Positions 11,194-14,235 of a stretch of 64,000 bases of DNA are shown one piece after another (within the stretch, counting starts at the first letter, position 1; each line of letters begins with the position of its first letter). This stretch comes from Hyphomonas johnsonii MHS-2. Lineage in GTDB: Bacteria; Pseudomonadota; Alphaproteobacteria; Caulobacterales; Hyphomonadaceae. The position numbers and the translations under genes were made by a program. Location of the stretch: positions 1 through 64,000 of the forward strand of contig NZ_ARYK01000008.1 in NCBI RefSeq assembly GCF_000685275.1, read 5' to 3'. A model generated the notes under the pieces. The model was not told the DNA's origin. It did not search any database and worked only from the letters and a program-made list of their open reading frames with translations.

Positions 11194-14100
11194 ATGACCG
11201 ATTCACTCACCGACCGCGATTACCGCGACACGCTGTTCCTGCCGACAACCGATTTCCCGATGCGCGGGGGCCTCCCCCAGCGTGAGCCGGAATGGATCAA
11301 GCGCTGGGACGAGATGAAGCTCTATGGCCAGTTGCGGGCTGATGCGAAGGCGCGCGGCGCCAAGCAATGGATCCTGCACGATGGCCCGCCTTATGCGAAC
11401 GGCCACATCCACCTCGGCACGGCGATGAACAAGATCGTCAAGGACGTGATCGTGCGCAGCCACCAGATGACGGGCCATGACGCCTCCTACCTGCCGGGCT
11501 GGGACTGTCACGGCCTGCCGATCGAATGGAAGGTGGAAGAGGAGTTCCGGTCGAAGAACCGCGGCAAGGACGATGTGCCGGGCGACGAGTTCCGCGCCGC
11601 CTGCCGCGCCTATGCCGAAAAATGGGTCGAGATCCAGGGCAGGGAGTTCCGCGCGCTGGGCATCGAGGGCGAATGGGACAATCCGTACCTGACCATGAAG
11701 TTCGAGAGCGAGGCGACAATCGTTGCCGAGTTCCTGCGCATGGCGATGCAAGGCGCGCTGGTGCGTGGCGCCAAGCCGATCATGTGGAGCCCGGTGGAAC
11801 GCACGGCGCTGGCCGAAGCGGAAGTGGAATATTACGACCGCAAAGTGCCGGTGATCTGGGTGAAGTTTCCGGTGTTGGAGCACTCCGGTCACGATGACTT
11901 AGACGATGCATCTGTCGTTATCTGGACGACAACGCCGTGGACGATTCCTGCGAACCAAGCGATTTCCTTCAGTGGCGATATTGAATACGGTCTTTATGAA
12001 GTCGCTGAAGTCATGTCAGAGGAAGAGGTGGGTTTTCCGCCTTACGCAAAGCAGGGTGAGAAACTCATCATTGCCCGAGACCTAGCTGATGCTGTCGCCA
12101 ATGCTGCTAAAATCAAGTTTCTTAGGCCGCTAAGGGAGAGATTTGGCGAAAACGGCAGAGTCTCTGTTGTTGAGCTTTCGAGTATGATTTGTGCTCATCC
12201 CCTTGCGAATGAAGGGCCTTTCTTTCAGCATAAGATTCCGTTGCTTGAAGGCCAACATGTTACTGCCGATGCAGGAACGGGTTTCGTGCATACCGCTCCC
12301 GCTCATGGCGAAGATGATAATATTGTCTGGTCTGCTTTCGCGCGTAGGTTCGCTGATCGTGGTGTCGATCAGGAAATCCGCCAGATCGTCGATGCCGAGG
12401 GCTGCTACACGCCGGACGTGCCGCGTTTTGCTGGCATGGACATCATCCGAACCAGCGGCAAGAAGCGCGGCGAACCGGGCAAGGCGAACAATGAAGTGAT
12501 CGCGGCGCTGGCCGAGAGCGGCAACCTGCTGGCGCGCGGTGTCACGACGATCCGCGATGCCCACTCGTGGCGCTCCAAGGCGCCCGTCATCCGCCGCGCA
12601 ACGCCGCAATGGTTCATCTCGATGGACAAGCCCGGCCCGAACGGCAAGTCGCTGCGCGAGAATGCTCTGGCGGCGATCGATGCGACCGAATTCTTCCCCG
12701 CGACGGGCCGCAACCGCCTGCGCAGCATGGTTGAAGGCCGGCCGGACTGGCTGATCAGCCGCCAGCGCAACTGGGGCGTGCCGATCACGATCTTCGTCGA
12801 CAAGAGCGGCCAGCCGCACACGGCGGCGCTGCCCGCCGATACGGCAAAGGCCCTCAACGAGACGATCAAGGCAGCCATCGCCAAGGGCGGCGTCGAGGCC
12901 TGGTTCGACACGCCGAAAGAGACCTTCCTGTCGGCGCACGGCATTGACGCGGCTGACTGGGACAAGGTGACAGACGTGCTGGACGTCTGGTTTGACAGCG
13001 GCACGACGCACGCCTTCGCGCTGCGCGCGCGCGGCATCATCGACGCCGAGACCGGGCAGGCAGACCTCTACATGGAAGGGTCTGACCAGCATCGCGGCTG
13101 GTTCCAGTCATCGCTGCTGGAATGCTGCGCCACGCGCGGCATGGCGCCTTACAAACAAGTGCTGACGCACGGATTCATCGTCGATTCCGATGGCAAGAAG
13201 ATGTCGAAATCGATCGGCAACACGATCGAGCCGGAACAGATTGCCAAGCAATACGGCATCGAAATCCTGCGCATCTGGACGGCCAGTGGCGATTATACCG
13301 AAGACCTGCGCATCTCCGACGAGATCATCAAGGGATCGGTGGAATCCTATCGCAAGCTGCGCAACACGGTACGCTACATGCTCGGCGCGCTGGACGGTTA
13401 CACGGCAGATGAAGCGATTGCGGCCGACAAGATGCCGGGCCTCGAACGCTGGGTGCTGCATCGCCTGTCCGAACTCGATGGACAGGTGCGCGCGGCCTAC
13501 AATGTCTACGACTTCAAGAAGGTGATGAGCCTGCTGATCAATTTCTGCGGCGTCGACCTGTCGGCGGTGTATTTCGATATCCGCAAGGACAGCCTCTACT
13601 GCGACCCACGGTTCGAAACGGCTAAGGCATGGGACAAGAAGACAGAGGTGTTCGGCAACCGGCGGCGTGCCGCGCGCACGGTGATGGCTGCGGTCCTGGA
13701 GCGGTTGCTGACCTGGCTTGCGCCGGTCATGCCGTTCACGATGGAAGAGGCCTTCCTCGAGAGCCACCTGAAGGACCGCGCCGCCTCGGTGCACCTGCTG
13801 CAATTCCTGGAGACGCCGGACGGCTGGCATGATGCAGAGCTGGCAGCGCGTTGGGAGAAGATATTCACCGTACGACGCGTCGTGACGGGGGCACTGGAAG
13901 TCGAACGGCGCGAGAAGCGGATTGGCGCTTCGCTGGAATCCTCGCCGCGTGTGCTGGTTGCAGACGAGACACTGATCGAGGCGTTCAAGGGCGAGGATGC
14001 GGGCGACCTGTTCATCACGTCGGGCGCGGAACTTGTCCATTCGGCCACGGGCGAGGGCGGCGGGTTCACGCTGGACGATACGCCGGGCGTGATTGTCTAT

Positions 14101-14235
14101 CCGGTCAAGGCGAGCGGCGTGAAATGCCGCCGCAGCTGGAAATACTTCGATCCCGCCACGGCGGACCCGGCTTTCCCGGACATCACACCGCGTGATGCGC
14201 TGTCCGTGAAGGCGTGGGATGCGACGCACGGTTGA
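11194..14235 (+). CDS. ileS: Isoleucyl-tRNA synthetase
   Basis: 1013 residues from the ATG at 11194; the open frame extends upstream but without family similarity. Class I signatures are PYANGHIHLG at about 66-75 and KMSKS at 669-673; DWLISRQRNWGVP and the WFDSG tryptophan block are also present. The CP1 editing domain retains WTTTPWTIPANQAI and GTGFVHTAPAHGEDD, which hydrolyse Val-tRNA. Two oddities: bases about 11881-12370 (residues about 230-392, the CP1 domain) are near 50% G+C by my count against about 70% either side, and the C-terminal zinc motif is reduced to KCRRSW with one Cys instead of paired CxxC. Charging of tRNA-Ile is certain. Confidence 0.97.
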   Translation: MTDSLTDRDYRDTLFLPTTDFPMRGGLPQREPEWIKRWDEMKLYGQLRADAKARGAKQWILHDGPPYANGHIHLGTAMNKIVKDVIVRSHQMTGHDASYLPGWDCHGLPIEWKVEEEFRSKNRGKDDVPGDEFRAACRAYAEKWVEIQGREFRALGIEGEWDNPYLTMKFESEATIVAEFLRMAMQGALVRGAKPIMWSPVERTALAEAEVEYYDRKVPVIWVKFPVLEHSGHDDLDDASVVIWTTTPWTIPANQAISFSGDIEYGLYEVAEVMSEEEVGFPPYAKQGEKLIIARDLADAVANAAKIKFLRPLRERFGENGRVSVVELSSMICAHPLANEGPFFQHKIPLLEGQHVTADAGTGFVHTAPAHGEDDNIVWSAFARRFADRGVDQEIRQIVDAEGCYTPDVPRFAGMDIIRTSGKKRGEPGKANNEVIAALAESGNLLARGVTTIRDAHSWRSKAPVIRRATPQWFISMDKPGPNGKSLRENALAAIDATEFFPATGRNRLRSMVEGRPDWLISRQRNWGVPITIFVDKSGQPHTAALPADTAKALNETIKAAIAKGGVEAWFDTPKETFLSAHGIDAADWDKVTDVLDVWFDSGTTHAFALRARGIIDAETGQADLYMEGSDQHRGWFQSSLLECCATRGMAPYKQVLTHGFIVDSDGKKMSKSIGNTIEPEQIAKQYGIEILRIWTASGDYTEDLRISDEIIKGSVESYRKLRNTVRYMLGALDGYTADEAIAADKMPGLERWVLHRLSELDGQVRAAYNVYDFKKVMSLLINFCGVDLSAVYFDIRKDSLYCDPRFETAKAWDKKTEVFGNRRRAARTVMAAVLERLLTWLAPVMPFTMEEAFLESHLKDRAASVHLLQFLETPDGWHDAELAARWEKIFTVRRVVTGALEVERREKRIGASLESSPRVLVADETLIEAFKGEDAGDLFITSGAELVHSATGEGGGFTLDDTPGVIVYPVKASGVKCRRSWKYFDPATADPAFPDITPRDALSVKAWDATHG

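Follow-up and report, generated by a model that had tools for sequence, protein, structure and literature searches.

Mosaic genes, of which penA in Neisseria is an example, arise by homologous recombination: an internal segment is replaced by DNA of a relative, which leaves sharp edges, tree conflict and raised synonymous divergence. Target-recognition domains of HsdS and variable outer-surface proteins are variable specificity modules under diversifying selection, in which a conserved frame holds many divergent alleles, often of low GC and few of them shared. Palindromic elements of the Rickettsia type insert in frame, and aminoacyl-tRNA synthetases are regarded as slow-evolving housekeeping enzymes. 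Horizontal transfer of whole synthetase genes is described for types 1 and 2 of isoleucyl-tRNA synthetase (IleRS) (PMC4861432) and for class I and II LysRS (PMC1475646). The ileS locus analysed here shares features with each of these systems. It has all the marks of a penA-type mosaic listed above, but one domain is divergent in many species of several genera, the gene encodes an essential intracellular synthetase, and no donor was found. Like HsdS and the outer-surface modules it combines a constant frame with divergent, low-GC alleles, as compared between species; however, IleRS is neither a surface nor a specificity protein, and its variable domain retains conserved catalytic motifs. Synthetases are exchanged between lineages here as in the whole-gene transfers, although only the editing domain or segment differs and the remainder of the gene has the history of the species. 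By eye, inserts resembling translated repeats of the palindromic-element kind are present in other genera (glyS L268-L271, ileS L088/L089), whereas the CP1 alleles of the genus are homologous domains, not inserted repeats, and 74 loop sequences were without a match outside their own gene in the DNA compared. In the literature covered by title and the start of the abstract, with subscription papers mostly outside the search, no paper was found on an IleRS CP1 or a GlyRS beta segment that is hypervariable or has been replaced repeatedly.

The window, i.e. the whole 64-kb stretch of DNA that was analysed, contains ileS for a bacterial-type IleRS (Table 1). The protein scores 737.1 bits against TIGR00392, relative to a cut-off of 621.4 (residues 21-917, profile 2-856 of 861), and aligns to S. 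aureus IleRS 1FFY with an E value of 1.6e-186; counted from an upstream TTG the open frame would be 1052 aa. By eye, genes resembling ribF and lspA are present on the upstream and the downstream side, respectively, not adjacent. The GC counts given in an earlier note on this DNA were exact, with 240/480 at 11881-12360, 43/60 at 11761-11820 and 40/60 at 12481-12540. The window as a whole has 63.5% GC, and the mean of its 480-bp windows is 0.634 (sd 0.032); that with the least GC, 11899-12378 (0.496), overlaps the block of the earlier note, and only 0.09% have a GC content at or below the block's value of 0.500. The best two-breakpoint fit of GC within ileS was 11821-12378 (0.502 inside, 0.640 outside, delta lnL 18.0), as compared to a maximum delta lnL of 7.8 across 300 codon shuffles of the gene, scanned on a coarser grid. 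A change in codon use had likewise been claimed and was confirmed: GC3 is 0.38-0.61 in five bins of residues 223-392 and 0.76-0.92 in the twelve other bins of the gene, and the Leu codon CTG is used 0/11 times in residues 228-388 against 46/61 in the remainder compared.

Table 1. Coordinates of ileS and of features of its variable block (positions in the window).
Feature	Position	Strand	Evidence
ileS, bacterial-type isoleucyl-tRNA synthetase, 1013 aa from ATG	11194..14235	+	TIGR00392, PF00133, PF08264, 1FFY alignment
Left break zone, codons for IWVKFP; close species near-identical up to it	11854..11871	+	codon alignments, three close pairs
Hypervariable low-GC CP1 block, residues ~227-392, unlike closest relatives	11872..12369	+	
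First CP1 loop EHSGHDDLDD; length and sequence strongly variable between species	11878..11907	+	alignments
Editing-site motif WTTTPWTIPANQ, identical in 30/30 species	11923..11958	+	motif check
Insert LRPLRERFGENG; related insert in L022 only, among 30 species	12121..12156	+	alignment and motif check
Editing-site motif DAGTGFVHTAPAHGEDD	12268..12318	+	motif check, 30 species
C-terminal insert type NIVWSAFARRFADRGVD; among 30 species L022 only, plus Henriciella MAG L061	12319..12369	+	
Right break zone, codons for QEIRQIVD; near-identity with closest relative returns	12370..12393	+	codon alignments

The block had been described as lying exactly over the CP1 editing domain. Its coordinates held to within a few codons of the segment that differs from the nearest relative (about 11872-12369), and its placement over CP1, obtained by alignment to 1FFY, is fair but approximate, the edges of CP1 in this enzyme being those we assume. 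Compared with the nearest relative, the left break follows WVKFP (residues 222-226) and the right break precedes QEIRQIVD (residue 393 onward), and identity changes sharply at both edges, as in a mosaic gene. The frame is intact, as had also been claimed, and both the Thr-rich and the HTAPxHGxDD-type motif, which we take to be the CP1 editing motifs, are present as WTTTPWTIPANQ and DAGTGFVHTAPAHGEDD in the form expected of an active editing domain. Within the latter, GTGFVHTAPAHGEDD is identical in 30/30 species and is preceded by DA in 29. Judging from these motifs, both the charging of tRNA-Ile and the editing of Val-tRNA-Ile should be preserved in the enzyme.

All of the 61 genomes searched matched the IleRS protein, a few of them partially or weakly. 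The genus alignment comprised 30 ileS copies, including that of the window (L001), from 37 genus genomes, with one genome per species. Outside this set were G001, G021, G026 and G027, whose matches were truncated or spread across contigs, as well as G008, G020 and G022, with long open frames but split matches (near the CP1 edge in G008 and G022); since these seven genomes were left out, some divergent cases are missing from the set. With residues 1-222 and 400-700 taken as the core, the window protein and its nearest relative (L002) are 97.9% identical in the core and 93% over residues 701-1013, as compared to 56.8% in CP1, where 20 gap columns occur; the corresponding values for L004/L006 are 99.2% in the core and 67.8% in CP1, with 21 gap columns. 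The 435 pairs of the 30 species include 51 with a core identity of at least 95%, and in these CP1 identity was <75% in 34 and at least 85% in 10. None of the same 51 fell below 75% in a C-terminal window of similar size (residues 700-864, minimum 79.4%). Judged by the remainder of ileS, 24/30 species had a nearest relative other than their best CP1 match, at a mean cost of 9.3% and a maximum of 34.3% identity; the same measure applied to seven other ileS windows gave 8-19 of 30, with costs of 0.5-1.2% and a maximum of 5.5%. Rank correlation of window identity with core identity was 0.26-0.46 for CP1 windows and 0.45-0.92 for others. CP1 and core identity are still weakly correlated (rho 0.35), which argues that many alleles were vertically inherited. 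At CP1 divergent alleles are in excess relative to both control genes and control lineages, as is expected of a locus under diversifying selection.

Low GC at CP1 is not confined to the window gene either. The earlier note had named, as a sign of an old inherited feature, the same low-GC block in close relatives together with one congruent tree for all parts of the gene; the outcome agrees with this by half, in that several close relatives of the window also carry low-GC CP1 blocks, but these blocks are not the same sequence and the trees are in conflict. In 30/30 species CP1 has a lower GC3 than the core, by 0.04 to 0.37, and the deficit is larger in CP1 alleles without close kin (rho -0.75, n=30; -0.49 at invariant residues). 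The first CP1 loop varies in length: the stretch from KF to IWTTTPWT has 8-33 residues in the 30 genus rows, and the first CP1 loops of some close species are unrelated sequences, not mutated versions of each other.

The CP1 tree groups the window allele with L022 at 100/99, and the two share two insertion types with no others among the 30 species. L022 is a member of the other main clade of the genus, with a core identity of 76% to the window. The core rejects the pair (delta lnL 441.65, p 1.5e-6, for a pair picked after the identities were known), and CP1 rejects, marginally (p 0.036), the clade of L001-L006, which has a support of 100 in the core. Such a conflict between segment and flanks was found for L001 and L022; CP1 of the other divergent alleles was unresolved or in line with the core. 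The best CP1 match was within the genus for each of nine divergent alleles tested. Consequently, import is less directly evident for alleles besides L001 and L022, and synonymous excess and unrelated loops are what would argue for it. A relative of the window allele was also found outside the genus, as the one match of six exact peptide patterns in the named species-level collection (L061, contig JAQWGO010000109.1 of a Henriciella sp. MAG). Its core is at most 76% identical to any genus row listed, and its CP1 is 80% identical to that of the window over the 66 CP1 residues present. GC3 of this CP1 piece is 0.36, as compared to 0.39 in the window and 0.60 in the L061 core. Nucleotide identity of the piece to the window is only 68%, and exchange between these hosts would thus be old or have passed via unsampled lineages. 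Since CP1 of L001 is very divergent from that of both L022 and L061 at the synonymous or nucleotide level, the exchange was not a recent one between those hosts.

The lower-GC donor proposed in the earlier note is a conjecture, as no close source was found in the collections searched, whose sampling is incomplete. Among the matches listed from 385 genomes of the class, none beyond the genus exceeded 60% CP1 identity, over about 145 residues. Among the other genera sampled, the best match of the window allele was 51% over 168 residues (L110), and the eight other divergent alleles tested reached at most 60% CP1 identity; of the rows compared here, L031 comes from the window's own genome and L032 from another member of the genus. 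CP1 identity peaked at 49% in the best 15 of 36 matching plasmid records, all of them <60%, and at 40% among 11 phage records with a CP1 match, and a pattern scan of IMG/VR, which detects close relatives only, gave no CP1 match. Gene conversion from silent cassettes of the pilE or vls type was rejected, with one CP1 match at E <= 0.001 in the window's own genome (G000). Likewise, 74 loop sequences compared with 1.6 Mb of two genus genomes, all loci and the window gave no match outside their own gene; 3/74 had outside matches, and all three were copies of the same locus. No splicing or homing Pfam domain indicative of an intein or intron was found in the IleRS protein, and the block aligns to CP1 of 29 relatives.

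At codons of invariant residues, L001 and L002 differ synonymously at 25/39 (64%) in CP1 and at 44/215 (20%) outside; CP1 divergence at such residues was about two to three times the outside value in the divergent close pairs listed. The mean synonymous difference was higher in CP1 than outside in 5/5 divergence bins (e.g. 0.43 vs 0.23). An excess was also seen in pairs whose CP1 looks vertically inherited (L017/L018, 0.38 vs 0.21; L026/L027, 0.41 vs 0.15), while L004/L005 had none. Because such pairs are raised and CP1 GC3 is low in all 30 species, part of the synonymous and GC3 signals may be regional, which makes the explanation preferred below slightly less likely and its two main rivals slightly more so. 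The transversion share at fourfold sites was 0.64 in CP1 and in the core alike (12 chosen pairs), as compared to 0.55 in CP1 pairs of resident alleles and 0.80 in distant core pairs. The equal share in CP1 and core gives no indication of a transition-type mutator, and transition-type hypermutation of CP1 was rejected on this basis.

The same decoupling of CP1 from the core was observed in two further genera. It is complete in g5 (25 rows; rho -0.10), where the first CP1 loop is unrelated in sequence in many species and the stretch from KF to IWTTTPWT has 11-44 residues in 24 rows; L094 and L095 are the same contig, which leaves 24 distinct rows, and 22 rows entered one comparison and 25 another. 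In g11 (12 rows, or 9 in the other count) rho was 0.37, and one pair had a core identity of 93.6% with 52.6% in CP1. A genus from another family of the class, g17 (20/31 genomes), was partially decoupled, with a rho of 0.30 and one pair at 90.3% in the core and 54.7% in CP1, while other close pairs were at 75-92%. Conversely, the control genera g3 (9 species, rho 0.97) and g2 (20 species, 20/31 genomes) had 0 CP1 gap columns and CP1 identities close to the core, with a mean CP1 identity of 95.5% in both for pairs with a core of 95% or more. The rho of g2 was only 0.40, over a narrow identity range, so that rho is not a clean measure. As CP1 tracks the core without gaps in g2 and g3, CP1 is not variable by nature.

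Nor is the variability a property of editing domains throughout the genus, where the CP1 edges of LeuRS and ValRS are again those we assume. For LeuRS (30 sequences, 16 close pairs) every window had a close-pair mean of at least 86% and the mean gap count was 0.0 throughout; CP1 of ValRS was stable as well (30 sequences, 16 close pairs). ValRS (valS loci L233-L262) has a gap-rich variable spot outside CP1, at residues ~441-480 of L258. To see which other genes behave in this way, 346 syntenic gene pairs in 800 kb of G036 and G018, or about 22% of each genome, were ranked by how far identity fell in the worst 100 columns of each gene. With a threshold applied to the 30 top-ranked pairs and chosen after the ranking had been seen (local flanks both at least 90%, block <70%), four of the 346 qualified, i.e. 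GlyRS beta, IleRS, TrkH and, mildly, ArgRS. RhlE (flanks 0.99, 0.88) and SpmX (0.91, 0.85) narrowly missed it. High ranks were likewise reached by stretches resembling linkers in SpmX, BlaR1, RNase E and RhlE.

The GlyRS beta segment is more variable than IleRS CP1. Between DPFALRRAALGVVRI and the DRLK helix, 24-122 mostly unrelated residues were found in 29 species, corresponding to the 29/30 loci (L203-L232) that passed the glyS motif filter. Mean identity in six close pairs was 28-46% in windows 481-560 vs 94-100% before residue 480, and GC3 drops to 0.53-0.58 in the segment from mostly 0.73-0.86 elsewhere. A few segment alleles are common to kin (L228/L229; L223, L225, L226 and L227), and the segment is variable in g5 too and partly in g3. 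In the window's own genome the gene (L213, G000:C6:225379-227574) has a hypervariable low-GC segment at ~485-560 with well-conserved flanks. In E. coli GlyRS beta, Loop H18-19 and Arg481/Arg482 are the means by which the HD domain clamps the acceptor stem of the tRNA (PMC9908026), and by residue spacing DPFALRRAA of the present proteins would fall at the Arg481/Arg482 site. The variable segments of these two enzymes may thus have in common that they belong to domains neighbouring the acceptor arm.

The reading of the earlier note, that a segment of the editing domain was recombined into the resident ileS of the window, is well supported by flank identity, synonymous excess, tree conflict and shared insertions. 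That this was one event did not stand. A single recent transfer limited to this strain would fit the sharp edges of the block and its overlap with the window's lowest-GC stretch, yet close species of this genus and of two others diverge strongly at the same place; the genus-wide comparison refutes it as the whole story, and we regard it as highly improbable. The explanation that we consider probable is that the window carries an imported divergent allele of CP1, which is a recurrently replaced, lineage-specific hypervariable module, presumably under diversifying selection. A divergent allele would have entered the resident gene through homologous recombination, with the conserved catalytic flanks as anchors, probably from a lower-GC relative outside the present sampling. 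Hypervariable CP1 alleles would be exchanged or imported repeatedly in at least three genera of the order, this one included, the editing-site motifs being kept while loops and outer parts change, and most other divergent alleles are likely to be imports as well. That diversifying selection favours change at CP1 is put forward with less certainty than recombination; its most likely source would be a protein or toxin that binds synthetase domains handling the acceptor arm, from which rare alleles escape. An artefact of assembly or contamination has a negligible likelihood: nothing was found in its favour, the contig is of 132 kb, the genome is 99.94% complete and 0.16% contaminated, and similar blocks occur in independent assemblies, two of them single-contig (G018 and G036).

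Two further readings compete with recurrent import under selection. The main rival, which we hold to be rather unlikely, needs no attacker: import rates of divergent DNA would be similar everywhere, and the imports would survive only in a modular, loosely constrained domain. The independent folding of CP1 (PMC4861432), the location of much of its change in loops, the 24 to 122 residues of the GlyRS beta segment in 29 species and the high-ranking linker-like stretches of the scan all agree with such tolerance. However, the near-core, gap-free CP1 of the stable control genera g2 and g3 and the stable CP1 of LeuRS and ValRS in the same genus speak against it, as does the small number of genes (4/346) with a block <70% between flanks of at least 90%, by the threshold set after ranking. 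Accelerated evolution in place, or local hypermutation without import, is improbable. It would account for the nine of nine divergent alleles tested with their best match inside the genus, some of which group like the core, and for the raised CP1 synonymous divergence of some vertical-looking pairs, and AT-biased change would reduce GC. Still, the 100/99 clade of the window allele with L022 against the core and their two common insertion types, the two- to threefold synonymous divergence at invariant residues in divergent close pairs, CP1 transversions as frequent as in the core and the unrelated first loops of some close species all oppose it, and because of the shared insertions it is already disfavoured for the window allele.

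If recurrent import under selection is true, the antigen-like variability of the IleRS editing domain and the GlyRS beta segment, in some genera only, would mark possible battlegrounds. A natural synthetase inhibitor or class of phage protein acting away from the active site would then be expected, and the natural CP1 alleles would be a ready panel for finding the attacker. Tentatively, and with more doubt than confidence, one intracellular agent (a phage protein, an interbacterial toxin or a defence factor) may, in these Alphaproteobacteria, bind both IleRS CP1 and the GlyRS beta HD region, escape being an antigenic type of variation fed by imported low-GC alleles; we know of no natural IleRS inhibitor that targets CP1. 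The variability also cautions against ileS and glyS as markers for phylogeny or strain typing in these bacteria.

Variable stretches were also noted in other genes. The TrkH potassium transporter (L144:10540-11991, G036 trkH) has an internal block of 51% identity with local flanks of 90-92%. ArgRS of G036 (L123:11447-13252, argS) is also variable, though more mildly, relative to its G018 ortholog: the stretch concerned contains a gap of 12 residues before LINSRGGTGYHTTDLATI, the local flanks being about 95% identical. In-frame inserts that by eye resemble translated dispersed repeats were seen in glyS L268-L271 at about residues 405-430 (PSVG.ADSSPASQGST), and the ileS first-loop insert in L088/L089 (PPPSASQTPPP.AGEE) has a similar appearance.
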